In this document: one piece after another, positions 49,693-56,481 of the stretch
Layout of the letters: the number at the start of each line of letters is the position of its first letter
Position numbering within the stretch: position 1 is the stretch's first letter
Origin: Pseudofrankia saprophytica
Lineage (GTDB): Bacteria; Actinomycetota; Actinomycetes; Frankiales; Frankiaceae
Reading direction: 5' to 3'
Length of the DNA stretch: 64,000 nt
Assembly (NCBI RefSeq): GCF_000235425.2
Contig: NZ_KI912266.1
Span: forward strand, 6,864,035 to 6,928,034
Notes under the pieces: model-generated
What the model was told of the DNA's origin: nothing
Databases searched by the model: none
What the model saw: only the letters and a program-made list of their open reading frames with translations
Translations under genes and position numbers: made by a program

Positions 49693-50397
49693 TCAGCGGT
49701 CGCGGCGGGCGGTGACACCCGGGGCGTAGGCGCGGACGAAGAGGCTGACATTCGAACGGATGGCCAGGTCCAGTTCGTCGGAGTCCTGAGCCGGTGGTGG
49801 GGAGATCGCGAACGTGCCGAGCTCCGTCATCGCCCACGAGACCCCGGTGACCAGGGTGACGAACTGGCCGGCCGCGCGGGCCGGGTCGTCGATGTCGAGG
49901 GCTCCGGCGTGGGCGAGACGGGCCAGGCTGCCGATGAGGGTGGGCCAGACGGGCGTCGCCGCCCGGGACCGCCACAGCGCCTGGAGGGCGGCATGGCGTG
50001 GCGCCTCCGTCTGAACGAGCAGGCGCAGCGACGCAGTGCCTGGGCTGGCATAGACGTCGTTGATGCGCCGGGCGAGGTCGACGAGGTACTTCTCGGCTTC
50101 GTCGGTGCCGTCCACCCGGTTGGGAAACGCGAGTGTCGCTTCGCGCAGGGCCTGCAGGTTCGCCGTGATCCGCTCATCCACGACCGCGAGGAAGAGCTTT
50201 TCCTTGTCGCCGAAGTGGTTGTACACGGTCTGGCGTGAGGCGGGAGTCGCCGTCGCGATGTCGTCGAGGCTGGTCGCGGCGTAGCCCTGGCGGGCGAAGA
50301 CCTCGAACGCCGCCTTCATGATCGCCTCTCGTTTGGCCTGCGTGCCGCGGCCTGACGCCCCCGCGCCGACACCGCCTGCGTCGCCAGCCACGGGCAC
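49693..50397 (-). CDS. TetR-family transcriptional regulator
   Basis: A 234-residue TetR protein: KREAIMKAAFEVFARQGYAATSLDDIATATPASRQTVYNHFGDKEKLFLAVV (in blocks) is the N-terminal DNA-binding domain. The C-terminal ligand domain resembles the TetR_C AefR-like type. Divergent from the FAD oxidoreductase gene; a 6-bp-arm palindrome at 50432-50447 in the shared region is the likely operator for both. Effector unknown. Confidence 0.9.
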   Translation of the reverse strand: MPVAGDAGGVGAGASGRGTQAKREAIMKAAFEVFARQGYAATSLDDIATATPASRQTVYNHFGDKEKLFLAVVDERITANLQALREATLAFPNRVDGTDEAEKYLVDLARRINDVYASPGTASLRLLVQTEAPRHAALQALWRSRAATPVWPTLIGSLARLAHAGALDIDDPARAAGQFVTLVTGVSWAMTELGTFAISPPPAQDSDELDLAIRSNVSLFVRAYAPGVTARRDR

Positions 50398-50431
50398 AGG
50401 CTACTCTCCTGGACCCAGGCGACTGAATCTC

Positions 50432-50447
50432 TGGACAACGATGTCCA
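50432..50447. promoter_or_regulatory. Palindromic operator in TetR/FAD divergent region
   Basis: TGGACAACGATGTCCA has perfectly inverted arms TGGACA/TGTCCA with a 4-bp centre. It lies 35 bp from the TetR start and about 70 bp from the FAD-gene start, a usual location for autoregulated TetR control. Confidence 0.6.
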
Positions 50448-50518
50448 ATTTGATGGTCGTACTTGTCTCGCCGGGTTACGTACCCGGCTGCCAATCAAGG
50501 AGAGGTCGAGGAGAGGCT

Positions 50519-52012
50519 GTGTCCACACCCAGGGTTCCGCACACGGTGGTCATCGGAGCCGGGCCGGCCGGCCTGACCGCCGCGTACCAGCTGGTGGCAC
50601 GTGACGCCGCCGTCACGGTCTTCGAGTCCGACGACGTGGTGGGCGGCATCAGCCGCACCGTCGAACGTGACGGCTGGCGGTTCGACATCGGCGGCCACCG
50701 GTTCTTCACCAAGGTCGCCGCCGTGGAGGCCCTGTGGCGGGAAATCCTGGCCGCCGACGACTTCCTGGTCCGGCCCCGGATGAGCCGGATTTACTACCAG
50801 GGCAAGCTCTATGACTACCCGCTGCGGGCACTCAACGCCCTGCGCAACCTCGGGCCGGGCCAGGCGGCGCTCGCCATCGGGTCCTACGCCCGGGCACGCG
50901 TCCGCCCGCCGAAGAACCAGGCAGACAACTATGAGGCCTGGCTGGTGGCGCGGTTCGGCTGGCGCCTCTACCGCAGGTTCTTCAAGACCTACACCGAGAA
51001 ACTGTGGGGTATCCCGGTCAGCGAGATGCCGGCCGACTGGGCCGCGCAGCGGGTGAAGAACCTCTCGCTGTCCTCGGCCATCGTCAACGCCGTCCTGCCC
51101 AGGCGGAACCAGAAGGAGATCACCAGCCTCATCGAGGAGTTCCACTACCCCAAGTACGGTCCCGGCATGATGTGGGAGGAGGCCGCCCGCAAGGTCGAGA
51201 AGATGGGTGGCACGGTCACGATGAACACCTCGGTGACGGCCGTGCACCGCGCGGACGGCGGCGCCGTCGCCGTCACCGTGACCACGAGTGCCGGCGACCG
51301 GAGGCGGGTACCCGCCGACCACGTCATCTCGTCCACGCCGCTGTCGACGCTGGTGCTGGGCATGGACCCGCCAGCGCCTGCCCGCGTGGTCGAGGCGGCG
51401 CGTGACCTGCGCTACCGCGACTATCTGACGGTCGCGCTCGTGGTCCCGGCGGAGTTCAGCTTCCCTGACAACTGGATCTACATCCACGATCCCGGGGTCC
51501 GCGTCGGCAGGATCCAGAACTACGGATCGTGGTCCCCCTACCTGGTGAAGGAGGGGAGGACGTGCCTCGGCCTCGAGTTCTTCGTCTTCGAGGGCGACGA
51601 CATGTGGACGAAGCCGGACGACGAACTGATCGCCCTCGGCACCCGGGAGCTCGAGACGCTGGGACTGGTCCGACGAGGGGTCGTGGAGAAGGGCTACGTC
51701 GTCCGGGTCCCCAAGGCATATCCGACCTACGACCAGTACTACCGAAACAACGTCGCGATCATGCGGAAGTGGCTGGCGGAGAACGTCCCGAACGTTCACC
51801 CCGTGGGCCGCAACGGCATGCACCGGTACAACAACGCGGACCACTCGATGCTCACCGCCATGCTGACGGTGGAGAACATCGTCGACGGCACCAGCCACGA
51901 CGTCTGGACCGTCAACGTCGAGGAGGAATACCACGAGGAGAAGCGCCCGGCCGGCCGCGCGCGCCCGACGGGCACCGGCCGCGACGCCCCCATCATTCCT
52001 CGACGGTCGTGA
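50519..52012 (+). CDS. FAD-dependent amine-oxidase/UDP-galactopyranose-mutase-like protein
   Basis: A 497-residue flavoprotein. The FAD-binding loop is VVIGAGPAGLTAAYQL followed by FESDDVVGGISRT and FDIGGHRFFT. RFFKTYTEKLWGIPVSEMPADW and the end HRYNNADHSMLTAMLTVENI (two blocks) are typical of the protoporphyrinogen-oxidase/UGM-like family often encoded with sugar-transfer genes. No partner glycosyltransferase is present here, so the substrate is uncertain. The GTG at 50519 has GGAGAGG upstream. Confidence 0.85.
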   Translation: MSTPRVPHTVVIGAGPAGLTAAYQLVARDAAVTVFESDDVVGGISRTVERDGWRFDIGGHRFFTKVAAVEALWREILAADDFLVRPRMSRIYYQGKLYDYPLRALNALRNLGPGQAALAIGSYARARVRPPKNQADNYEAWLVARFGWRLYRRFFKTYTEKLWGIPVSEMPADWAAQRVKNLSLSSAIVNAVLPRRNQKEITSLIEEFHYPKYGPGMMWEEAARKVEKMGGTVTMNTSVTAVHRADGGAVAVTVTTSAGDRRRVPADHVISSTPLSTLVLGMDPPAPARVVEAARDLRYRDYLTVALVVPAEFSFPDNWIYIHDPGVRVGRIQNYGSWSPYLVKEGRTCLGLEFFVFEGDDMWTKPDDELIALGTRELETLGLVRRGVVEKGYVVRVPKAYPTYDQYYRNNVAIMRKWLAENVPNVHPVGRNGMHRYNNADHSMLTAMLTVENIVDGTSHDVWTVNVEEEYHEEKRPAGRARPTGTGRDAPIIPRRS

Positions 52013-52730: not shown

Positions 52731-52836
52731 TTCATGATCTGGTGGGATTTTCGGAGCCATGGATATGCGTGTCTCAGGACATACAGTCATACGACTGTCC
52801 AGACCTGCGCTTGCTTGACGCTTGCTAGAGCAAGCG
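52731..52836. repeat. Left imperfect inverted repeat of a 3.5-kb island
   Basis: TTCATGATCTGGTGGGAT, TTCGGAG, GTGTCTC, ACATACAGT and GACCTGCGCTT occur here in order, and in the same order on the opposite strand from 56223 down to about 56125. The overall match is about 75-80% by eye over ~85 bp. The inner end carries the hairpin CGCTTGCT-AG-AGCAAGCG (52819-52836). Confidence 0.75.
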
Positions 52837-53402
52837 CCGCTCGGGTCGATCCGTTGGCGATCTTAGTGCGTGCTGCTGTCGGCGGGGCGTGACAGTCGCT
52901 GTAGGCGGGGCGTGGTGGAGGCATCCAGGTGGGTCCAGAGAGGCAGTTTGAGGGCTGCGGCCCATGTCCCCCGCTACCTGCTACAGAATGCGGTGTGTGG
53001 TGGTCGGTGGGGGTGCGGGGTGTAGCGGCGGGTGTAGCGCTGTCGCGACCCCGCCGCATGTCGCTCCACGTCGGCGCGTTCGCGTCGCGGACTGGACCAG
53101 CGTAGCGGCCGCTGTTGCATTCGGTTCGCTTTAATAGCCGGAGCACTTGCGCCACAGCGGAGGTCTTCGACGGCCGGAGCGATCGCATGCCGATACCGCG
53201 AAGCATAGAATGACACTCCGAGGCGGTCTGAGCGAAATTCTGACGCGAACCCGGCCCTGAAGGGGTCGAGAAATAGGCCAACGCCGTACAGCCCTCCGCC
53301 CGCAGCCACCAACCGAACAACCCTCCAACTCACCCAGCAAGACTAATTACCGAAAAGCATTGTCATCGAGAATCGCCTATAGCGAGGGAAAGGTTAAACC
53401 TA
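52837..53402. other. Non-coding left part of the island
   Basis: No credible ORF. GC content and codon structure look lower than in the flanking genes. No tRNA or integrase is visible. Confidence 0.4.
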
Positions 53403-53765
53403 GTGGCCATACGGCCGGGGAAAAGGAACGGAATAATTCTGAAACTCGAAGTGGAGCGTACGCTCATCGAGGCAGGTCTTCTCATGGCGCCGCCGCTCCA
53501 GATGGCTCTCTGCTCTGGGTTCTATATCGAGCCGTCCGATCTCCGGCCGCTGGAGGAGATCCCGGACCCGAGTATCGCCGTAACGTGGCTGGTTCACCCA
53601 AATCTGCGAGAGAAATATCCCACGGCATGGCCAGAAGCGCGCGAGATGCAGAGCGCGCGAGATACTATGCTCGTCGCCATAAAAAGTATTTTGGAGTTTG
53701 CGGGCTTCGAGGTTGAGGTGGACGACAATGAAATGCCCGACTTTCTCTTTGTGAGCTATCCGTGA
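53403..53765 (+). CDS. Small orphan protein of unknown function
   Basis: A 120-residue protein with a GTG start after GAGGGAAAGG. The sequence looks protein-like (VTWLVHPNLREKYPTAWPEA, MLVAIKSILEFAGFEVEV, then an acidic patch and LFVSYP) with AT-richer codons than the neighbours. No family recognised, no signal peptide or membrane helix. It is convergent with the XRE-TPR regulator gene and lies inside the island. Confidence 0.5.
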   Translation: MAIRPGKRNGIILKLEVERTLIEAGLLMAPPLQMALCSGFYIEPSDLRPLEEIPDPSIAVTWLVHPNLREKYPTAWPEAREMQSARDTMLVAIKSILEFAGFEVEVDDNEMPDFLFVSYP

Positions 53766-53853
53766 TGGATGCCATCCGGGCGTGATGGAGCGATCGAATC
53801 GGCACGTGACTGCCACCGGGTCGGGCGCCCTGGGTGCGGCGCTTTCGCTGACG

Positions 53854-55080
53854 CTAGTCCTCCCCCCTTGGGCGCCGCATCGCTTCGTAAACAGCTTTTA
53901 GATCGCTGGCCCTGGAAAAACGCTCCTCCTGCATGGCGTCCGCTACTTCCAATATTCGCCAGAAATGCGAAGGCACGATCTTTCCTGATTCGACTGCTCC
54001 CATTGCCGCGTGGAGCGCCTCATCACTTTTTCCCATGTAGGTAAGCGTCAGTGCAAGGTCGATGCTTGCCATCGCGGCCCGCCGTGGCCAACGAGCGGGA
54101 GCGGACATCGGGGCGCCAATCTTGGTGATCACTTCGCGGGCGAAGTCCTCGGCGGCCGAGTCACGTATCCATGTCAGTGTCGTGGCCGTGTAGGAAACGG
54201 CTTTCGCAGGATCGTACCGATAGTGATGTTCCGGGCGGGTAGGATCACTGAGCGATGATGCCATCTTCTGAACGCGGCCGATCGCCCTGTACGTATCGCC
54301 GCGTGATCCCAGGCGTGCCCATCCTCGGCCTTCCTGTGCTGCCGCTTGTATCATGATCGAACTTCCGTGTGGAGCGAAACTTTGCGCTGCGCGTGACAGG
54401 TCGACGGCCATGCGGAAGTCGCCGGAGGTCAGCGCCTGCCACGCTCGCGTTTCATAGCACCATGCGATGATCTCGGGGTTCTCTGCCTGCTCCGCAAGGC
54501 TCATCGCGGTGGCCAGATAGGTGGACGCGGCACGGTCGCGTTTCAGGTCGATAAGAACCGTCGCGCCCAACAGCGACAGCCAGCCCCCGACCAGCAGAAG
54601 CCGACGGTGCTCATGAAGCGTTTTCCGAGCATCCAGCAGTTTCCCGACGTTGCTTAACGACTGGTTGATCTCCAGCAGGATCCGGCTGGGGTGCTCGAAC
54701 TGATACCGGCACGCCAGATCGTCGAATCCGGACTCAAGATAGGTGAGCGTCGCGTCTCCTACGTCGCTCGCCGCGACCCGTCGAGCAAGTTCTCCCGCTT
54801 CATCCGAGTCTTCCTGCGCCGAGGCCACGGCGATAGAAAAGACGTCCGATGTGTGCCGCGTAGGTGGCGCCGCCGAAATAAGCCGGTCAAGTTCGTGGTA
54901 GTCGACGCCCAGCGCCTTGGCTAGTCCGCTTCGGTGCTCGGGGTAGGGTTCCGTTCTTCCTTGTTCCCAGCGTGCGACTGTCGATCGATCGACGCCGACG
55001 GATTCGGCTAGCCCTTCCTGGCTGTAGCCCATGGCCTTCCGCCGCGCGGCAAGCGCGGGTCGCTTCTGGGGAGTCGGCAC
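53854..55080 (-). CDS. XRE-family regulator with TPR-like sensor region
   Basis: A 408-residue protein. Residues about 8-65 form an XRE helix-turn-helix (ARRKAMGYSQEGLAESVGVDRSTVARWEQGRTEP in blocks). The rest is a series of helical repeats rich in small residues (YLATAMSLAEQAENPEII, ALTSGDFRMAVDLSRAAQ, DLALTLTYMGKSDEALHAA) typical of the TPR-type sensor domains of Streptomyces/Frankia XRE regulators that respond to peptides. The GTG start has GGAGG eight bases upstream. It is the only clear regulator in the island and is transcribed away from the GTAACC motif cluster. Confidence 0.85.
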   Translation of the reverse strand: MPTPQKRPALAARRKAMGYSQEGLAESVGVDRSTVARWEQGRTEPYPEHRSGLAKALGVDYHELDRLISAAPPTRHTSDVFSIAVASAQEDSDEAGELARRVAASDVGDATLTYLESGFDDLACRYQFEHPSRILLEINQSLSNVGKLLDARKTLHEHRRLLLVGGWLSLLGATVLIDLKRDRAASTYLATAMSLAEQAENPEIIAWCYETRAWQALTSGDFRMAVDLSRAAQSFAPHGSSIMIQAAAQEGRGWARLGSRGDTYRAIGRVQKMASSLSDPTRPEHHYRYDPAKAVSYTATTLTWIRDSAAEDFAREVITKIGAPMSAPARWPRRAAMASIDLALTLTYMGKSDEALHAAMGAVESGKIVPSHFWRILEVADAMQEERFSRASDLKAVYEAMRRPRGED

Positions 55081-55306
55081 GCTGGTCCTCCGCGTCGGCT
55101 GCCGGGCTCATGGAACGGTGCTCGCCTCAGTATGCGCCGAACGCATGCCCTGCACCGAGGATGCGCCACAGACGCCCTCGCCGCACTCGCGCGGATACCT
55201 GACGCTCAGTGACAAGCCCCCGGGCCGGCCAAACCACCACCCGACCGGCCCGGGGTGCCCGAACGGATGACAGCCACGCTCAGGTCCTTGGGCACGTCAA
55301 AGGTGG

Positions 55307-55495
55307 ATGTGTGAAATGGGCAGTAGGTATCGGCGCAGACGTCGCCCTCGGCGTCAGCTTGGCTCGTGGACCGTCGCCATCGTCGACAACGGAAAAGGCC
55401 CAAGACTCACATGGGTGCGGCTCTACCACCCCCATGAACACAATCATCGAGACACCGCGAAGGCCGCTGGTTTAACCCGCCCACTTCAACCCTGA
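55307..55495 (+). CDS. Possible small basic protein
   Basis: A 62-codon frame: an Arg-rich start (RYRRRRRPRR) and a plausible folded end (WTVAIVDNGKGPRLTWVRLY, then a His-rich HPHEHNH). GTG at 55307 follows AAAGGTGG; an ATG is three codons later. It may be a real small regulator-associated protein, but length and composition leave it uncertain. Confidence 0.35.
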   Translation: MCEMGSRYRRRRRPRRQLGSWTVAIVDNGKGPRLTWVRLYHPHEHNHRDTAKAAGLTRPLQP

Positions 55496-55555
55496 AGCCA
55501 TTCATCGCGCCCATGGCCACGCCGCGCGCGCCGCGCGCCGGGACGGGCAAGGGGT

Positions 55556-55716
55556 GTAACCGCCGGCCCACAGCGTAACCGCAGGGTTACCCCCCTGGTT
55601 ACCTCCCGTACCATCCCTGACCAGCGCAGATGCCACCGTGTAACCGGTAACCGCGCAGCCCGACACTCGCTCCGAACCGCCTCTAACGCGGTCCAGCCCA
55701 CCGCCGACGTGGTTAC
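55556..55716. repeat. Cluster of seven GTAACC motifs
   Basis: GTAACC or its complement GGTTAC occurs at 55556, 55575, 55585, 55597, 55640, 55647 and 55711. In GC-rich random DNA far fewer than one would be expected in 161 bp. The motifs sit 5' of the XRE-TPR gene and are arranged in both orientations, as in operator arrays or replication/transfer iterons. Confidence 0.75.
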
Positions 55717-55899
55717 CCGCTACCGCCCGCACGCGCTACCGCACGGTGTTGGGGGTGCATACCTCGTCAACCATAACCGGATTCATCAACAGCACGGATC
55801 ACTTCAGTTCGCACCACAATTATGATCTTCATATGGTCCCATGCCCCTGCCCCTGCCCCGGCGGCGTCCGCCTTGGACCGTCGGCGAGATCGCGTTCAT

Positions 55900-56004
55900 C
55901 CTGTCCGACGTCGCGGCGAATCCTGTCCGACGTCAGGGGCGCGGCCGGTGCGATCTCGTGCCCCTGACGTCGGACAGGAAATCACGATTGCCTCAGACGT
56001 CTGA
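55900..56004. repeat. 20-bp perfect inverted repeat plus related palindromes
   Basis: TCCTGTCCGACGTCAGGGGC (55921-55940) and GCCCCTGACGTCGGACAGGA (55960-55979) form perfect 20-bp arms 19 nt apart. CTGTCCGACGTC also occurs at 55900-55911, and the palindrome TCAGACGTCTGA lies at 55993-56004. So four half-sites of one motif are packed into about 100 bp. Confidence 0.85.
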
Positions 56005-56124
56005 CACGACGCGAGACAGGAAGGGCGGGCGGGCATTGCGAGGCGGCGCTAACTCTTGTTAGCAATTCGCTTGCGCCAGCTAGCATTTTGGCCCGGTGGC
56101 TCAGTCGGGATTCCATCGCCTCAC

Positions 56125-56223
56125 CTGCGCTTGCTGAAGTAAGCGCAGGTCAGAACCCCGCTTCTCACTGTATGTGCCGAGACACGTAACGCTATGACTC
56201 CGAAGATCCCACCAGATCATGAA
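56125..56223. repeat. Right imperfect inverted repeat of the 3.5-kb island
   Basis: The reverse-complement counterpart of 52731-52816. Its inner end forms the hairpin ACCTGCGCTT/AAGCGCAGGT (10-bp arms). Just inside it, near 56048-56063, is the short hairpin GCTAAC-TCTT-GTTAGC. Confidence 0.75.
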
Positions 56224-56312
56224 CGGCTCGCGTGTCTGGGGCAGGGGCGCGGGGGCGGTGGGCAGGAAGGGAGCAGGAGAGCGGGAGAGCAGGAGAGCAG
56301 GAGCGGGAGCGG

Positions 56313-56476
56313 GAGAGCAGGAGCAGGAGCGGGAGCGGGAGAGCAGGAGCAGGAGCGGGAGCGGGAGAGCAGGAGCAGGAGCGGGAGCGGGAGAGCAGGA
56401 GCAGGAGCGGGAGCGGGAGAGCAGGAGCAGGAGCGGGAGCGGGAGAGCAGGAGCAGGAGCGGGAGCGGGAGAGCAG
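56313..56476. repeat. 26-bp minisatellite, six to seven units, purine-rich strand
   Basis: Units start GAGAGCAGGAGCAGGAGC and add GGGAGCGG; they recur at 56313, 56339, 56365, 56391, 56417, 56443 and 56469, exactly 26 bp apart. Shorter GAGAGC repeats precede (56285, 56293). The plus strand is almost entirely purine plus C. It ends right at the stop of the minus-strand membrane gene at 56482 and is probably its 3' non-coding DNA. Confidence 0.92.
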
Positions 56477-56481
56477 GAGCG

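Follow-up and report, generated by a model that had tools for sequence, protein, structure and literature searches.

What binds a dense cluster of one hexamer that lies beside a regulator gene, and is its binder encoded nearby? The question is raised by a 64,000-nucleotide stretch of Pseudofrankia saprophytica DNA (the window), in which a preliminary description had noticed seven GTAACC motifs within 161 bp. Their binder had been sought among regulators, replication initiators and transfer proteins, either the neighboring XRE-TPR protein or an external one.

The GTAACC array and its statistics

A direct motif search found GTAACC at 55556, 55575, 55640 and 55647 on the + strand and at 55585, 55597 and 55711 on the - strand, so that the count, the two orientations and the tandem 55640/55647 were all as first described. 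An eighth site, GCTAC at 55719-55723, is one base off and had been overlooked. Read as GTAAC in forward (F) and reverse (R) orientation, the clt-like array covers 55556..55723 (+) with sites F 55556, F 55575, R 55586, R 55598, FF 55640/55647 and RR 55712/55719.

The window holds 18 GTAACC in total against 7.9 expected (sd 3.2), a number reached in one of 100 dinucleotide shuffles, and seven of the 18 are within the 161 bp. When all hexamers were scored in 180-bp stretches over the whole window, the GTAACC cluster scored 12.4 (-log10 Poisson), and higher scores came only from a minisatellite at ~56.25-56.48 kb. Six Markov-simulated 64-kb sequences, for which the scan step was coarser than for the real window, had best hexamer clusters scoring 4.9-7.3. 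In a genome-wide check for clustered GTAACC, suggested in the preliminary description, the genome (9.98 Mb in two contigs, C1 and C2) contained 16 same-strand pairs spaced by no more than 30 bp versus 9 for a reversed control pattern, three of the 16 being in the window array and one in a second full array on C2.

The same layout at the 3' end of traB-like genes

With the whole intergenic region as a DNA query against 41 genomes, the array region was found in Pseudofrankia asymbiotica NRRL B-16386 (G005) and in a 5.43-Mb Frankia genome that we take to be Frankia CcI3 (G016). When the array alone was the query, 35 genomes yielded three matches outside the window: two are in G005, the third in G016. 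The stop codon of a 734-aa protein falls within the first GTAAC of the array in G005. This translocase has no Pfam or NCBIfam match; it matches the phage FtsK/SpoIIIE family (E 7e-13), its family profile matches solved FtsK structures (4e-10), and it is 31% identical to the TraB region of pSVH1 (E 1e-19). Among its nearest relatives on plasmids are proteins annotated as FtsK-like, that of pSVH1 included.

A search for TraB-like proteins gave 42 matches in 20 of the 35 genomes, 14 of which are 57-100% identical to the query. GTAAC sites were seen at six of these 14 close TraB loci (4-8 each, beginning at -3 relative to the stop; one array is truncated) and GTAGC sites at seven (4-9 each), while at the last, L080, a single GTAGC is seen before the flank or contig diverges. 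Both types have a common layout of F, F, R, R, tandem FF and, ~60 bp later, tandem RR. The window sites are 87-98% identical to those of nine other arrays and the spacers 46-57%, in a comparison that took its site columns from the window and its arrays from searches for their GTAAC. This recurrence of the layout in related Frankiaceae, together with the score of 12.4 against 4.9-7.3 in simulations, bears out the earlier claim that GTAACC is clustered beyond chance.

The 28 more distant TraBs are mostly followed by other hexamers. A hexamer cluster score of at least 6 just after the stop was found at 21 of the 38 TraB loci with enough downstream DNA versus 10 of 945 control stretches, a contrast whose p-value overstates the case since the loci are related to one another and not independent. 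The other 17 loci scored below 6, including four of the six GTAAC-type loci (L061, L062, L081 and L059, 2.6-5.0), where the case rests on the aligned layout. The positive control pSVH1 gave the expected result, four direct and one inverted GACCCGGA, its repeat motif, within ~110 bp after traB; the Pseudonocardia plasmid pPaSha2, which carries one of the most closely related FtsK-like plasmid genes, showed no clear array. A genome-wide pattern scan gave 34 stretches, eight of which were accepted; the other 26, inspected only in part, are in unrelated taxa, many with GTAAC clusters. The tandem-pair pattern had no match in a viral contig collection, and a longer pattern for the paired start sites matched, with one mismatch, at six places in 35 genomes, none of these places being an accepted array.

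In relatives, traB/FtsK-like genes bear arrays of the same layout at their 3' ends. Among the binders first considered, the comparison therefore favors a transfer protein external to this genome. The XRE-TPR protein is disfavored. We propose, with a probability of roughly 80%, that the array is a clt-type recognition array for TraB, separated from traB in the window copy. Such a putative clt would be a docking site for TraB, the DNA pump by which mobile elements pass from cell to cell. One subfamily of TraBs from integrative elements of Frankiaceae would recognize GTAAC(C), and a sister subfamily would use GTAGC in the same layout.

TraB tail residues and the base of the site

Four of 766 alignment columns separate the GTAAC-type from the GTAGC-type proteins without exception among the 14 close TraBs, columns with a gap in any row having been left out. 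They are A705 versus D/N, Q713 versus R/L, A719 versus D, and 729; all fall within 705-729 of 734, in the last 30 residues of TraB. In a tree of the remaining TraB protein, L080, with a GTAGC-type tail and its one GTAGC, is nested among GTAAC-type proteins, so that the GTAAC/GTAGC label needs two changes on the tree. Three to four tail residues switch together with the A/G base of the site. A winged helix is reported for the tail of pSVH1 TraB in the accessible text of PMC3583192; the predicted structure of the tail here is of low confidence (pLDDT 41.4). The arrays would give a concrete and testable clt code, made up of one site base and a few TraB tail residues.

A 3.5-kb insertion with a second, decayed array

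The homologous arrays lie directly at the 3' end of traB, whereas no traB adjoins the window copy, a clt-like array without its own traB inside a discrete insertion. The inserted segment (52731..56223) measures 3493 bp between the outer ends of its inverted repeats and holds both this array and a second one as well as the XRE-TPR gene. The left terminal inverted repeat (52731..52787, +) is 57 nt long and 84% complementary to the right one (56167..56223, -), with which it pairs, and the similarity continues to ~52816. The G+C profile of the insertion is below that of the flanks. It is absent from the matching site of two congeners, G005 and Pseudofrankia sp. BMG5.36 (G006), where a mere ~50-65 bp separates the operon at 56.48 kb from the gene that ends near 52.7 kb, and the element DNA was not found in eight congener stretches (L148-L155). 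The outer ~27 bp of the inverted repeats (52731-52757 and 56197-56223) are the halves of a 57-bp palindromic repeat (TTCATGATCTGGTGGGAT...) dispersed in the genus, intact copies of which are found in congener loci L156, L160-L162, L166 and L168. The segment may therefore have entered a dispersed palindromic repeat. Integrase/recombinase domains (PF00589, PF00239) had no match within the window at E 0.001; as the insertion has inverted-repeat ends but no recognized recombinase, its mobility stays a proposal. Neither the traB/ftsK-like gene nor the site-specific integrase of a self-transmissible AICE was found in it.

The second array, of GTAGC type, lies at 52971..53084 (-) and was delimited by alignment to traB-downstream DNA. 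Four in-register sites are kept (52973, 52980, 53022 and 53034), two site positions are mutated, the outer site pair was not found, and a further GTAGC at 53102 is out of register. It aligns to six traB-downstream sequences, which represent four distinct loci and two overlapping fetches, with scores of 55-62 against shuffle maxima of 18-28; in a panel of at most 48 sequences its best score was 61 against a null maximum of 23. The GTAAC sites of the insertion are intact and those of this array are not. A third array type suspected at the insertion ends (GCTTGC/GCAAGC, 52.80-52.84 and 56.05-56.16 kb) was rejected, its alignment to the traB-downstream panel being within the null (left end 17 versus a maximum of 18, right end 13 versus 17).

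Several other features surround the array. A hairpin-forming repeat of ~80-170 bp (CCTGTCCGACGTC arms, 55896-55985) has many copies in this genome and in congeners. On the side of the array away from the XRE-TPR gene, just beyond the insertion, come the minisatellite, of GGAGCGGGAGAGCAGGAGCA type (56254-56480), and then the last part of an operon for branched-chain amino acid transport. An amine oxidase segment (49721-52006) is differently placed and oriented in genomes G001-G003 and lies on other contigs in G005 and in Frankia nepalensis CN7 (G004), a local rearrangement adjoining the insertion.

No close TraB found in this genome, and other loci with arrays but no traB

No close TraB was found in the genome of the window at E 1e-30, and the family profile gave only weak matches to other FtsK-like proteins (E 5e-15 or worse), none of them within the window. 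Three of these lie near integrases (C1:7940147, C1:778993 and C2:1331614). The 10-13 kb around each weak match contained no cluster of at least four GTAAC or GTAGC, and for this reason these proteins are not proposed as users of the array. In G016, five GTAGC at 4910-5083 of L177, one of four such stretches, are ~1.5 kb from a weak FtsK-like match and may be a sign of a resident user of the GTAGC array in that genome.

Four loci besides the window have arrays without traB; L059, with a further array 6 kb from its traB, was excluded from this set. Eight GTAAC and eight GTAGC positions are present in L107, on C2 of the genome of the window (a tyrosine integrase by tRNA-Val is ~3 kb away), and in L130 of Actinoplanes subtropicus (tyrosine integrase ~30 bp away). 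L053 of G016 has seven GTAAC and eight GTAGC positions, with the open frame of a serine recombinase ending ~0.5 kb away, and L125, on contig_66 of P. asymbiotica, has eight GTAAC only; for L130 and L125, 8 kb each were examined. The two arrays of L107, L053 and L130 are 60-165 bp apart. Both types together were found at none of the 14 close traB loci in the flanks examined, two of which are short.

That these three loci pair complete GTAAC and GTAGC clts close to a recombinase gene, with no traB, suggests mobilizable elements for which two or more foreign TraBs could serve, and loci of this kind predict hijacking by more than one TraB. A broader idea, to which we give slightly less than an even chance, is that traB-less elements of Frankiaceae and Actinoplanes stack GTAAC and GTAGC clts and are carried by whichever conjugative element is present, as multi-key hitch-hikers. 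The window insertion would then be a small member, with one intact and one worn key flanking the XRE-TPR gene.

Use in trans, decay and other explanations

The simplest account of the window array, judged from sequence, would be a clt whose TraB is missing from this genome. The window clt would be separated from any traB, in a 3.5-kb insertion with the XRE-TPR gene and a decayed GTAGC clt, and a TraB from another element could use it in trans; both TraB binding and use in trans are inferred. As the pump gene is missing, the element would be either a hitch-hiker or a relic, and the window copy is most likely a clt used in trans or what is left of one.

The relic reading, in which the array was left behind by an integrative conjugative element after loss of traB and has no present function, is for the window copy nearly as likely as use in trans, although we hold it short of even odds. 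In keeping with it, no close TraB was found in the genome and no integrase within the window, and the GTAGC array is decayed. Yet all eight GTAAC positions are kept, seven of them perfect, while the spacers differ by about half; two clt types in one small insertion are hard to reach by simple decay of a single element, and other loci that have no traB carry intact paired arrays.

The neighboring gene (53854..55080, -) encodes a regulator of the NsdA family (NCBIfam 116.5 bits, cut-off 75). It is transcribed away from the array, its start being 476 bp off, and this divergent position is what would make an operator array conceivable, with the XRE-TPR protein regulating its own gene or a neighboring one by binding to GTAACC. 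The arrays of L053 and L059 likewise have an XRE-TPR protein encoded at most ~3.5 kb away, but the three proteins adjoining arrays are barely alike. Nor is the array kept upstream of orthologous genes: the G004 orthologue (80-82% identical) shares 369 bp of matching upstream DNA, yet there is no GTAACC on its 3.4-kb contig, and none was found in a 10-kb stretch with a homologue in G040 (51% identical). Arrays at traB 3' ends were moreover seen with no orthologue of the window XRE protein found beside them, other XRE-TPR proteins occurring in some of the elements. We consider an operator quite improbable. In L033, a CTGCTA/GCTAGC cluster (471-650) was seen ~1 kb from a distant homologue of the XRE-TPR gene.

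Short repeats, direct as well as inverted, within a mobile element also resemble the iterons of a replication origin, here of an integrated plasmid or integrative element; those of pWTY27 are described as repeats of that sort in the accessible text of PMC3583192. This is in our view very improbable, as the layout is tied to traB and not to a rep gene (in a partial rep search) and changes in the sites go with changes in the tail residues of TraB. A chance cluster or low-complexity effect can be discounted almost entirely: the total of 18 motifs is matched by an occasional shuffle, but the cluster score is far over the simulations and the recurrence of the spacing in nine other arrays refutes it.

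Comparison with known systems

The proposed clt resembles the TraB/TraA-bound clts of the Streptomyces plasmids pSVH1, pWTY27, pIJ101 and pJV1 in having short direct and inverted repeats 3' of an FtsK-like gene, the repeat sequence being element-specific. The clt of pWTY27, as given in the available text of PMC3583192, comprises the last 16 bp of traA and 159 bp beyond, a position similar to that of the arrays described here. What differs here is a new repeat, GTAAC/GTAGC, a fixed eight-site layout with two tandem pairs, and a window copy without a traB gene. In Streptomyces chromosomes, clt-like sequences at a distance from traB have been described, and pSVH1 TraB is reported to bind such sequences in the S. 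coelicolor chromosome (accessible portions of PMC4170104, PMC3218068 and PMC12857230). The window array is likewise chromosomal and away from traB, but in contrast to those sites it has the full layout, an insertion with inverted-repeat ends and a second array type alongside.

Elements without tra were noted among actinomycete elements by Ghinet et al. 2011 (PMC3218068, in the part accessible). Frankia AICEs and remnant or mobilizable elements without tra or rep share with the present case the genus group and an FtsK-like Tra as the only transfer protein; no clt sequence is named for Frankia AICEs in the accessible literature, and the window insertion differs in having no recognized integrase. 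Integrative and mobilizable elements would similarly depend on the transfer protein of another element, but according to the portions of the literature available they use a relaxase and type IV secretion, whereas double-stranded DNA transfer by TraB is presumed here. As far as the literature outside subscription papers shows, the GTAAC/GTAGC code, clts in Frankiaceae and traB-less loci with two clt types appear to be new.

A second stretch shared by the arrays

Between the left and right site groups of the window array lies CTGACCAGC (55617..55625, +), a stretch also overlooked in the preliminary description, which recurs in related arrays and has variants downstream of traB genes. TGASCWG was found at most 130 bp from the traB stop at 22 of 38 loci versus 54 of 1356 control stretches. 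The aligned CTGACCWGC stretch points to a possible second shared part of the clt. Among plasmids, TGACCWGC occurs at most 230 bp after traB at 10 of 12 loci, two of the loci being near copies, and CTGACCTGC is at a fixed distance after traB in most of the Streptomyces plasmids examined (10/12), for example at +146 in L181.
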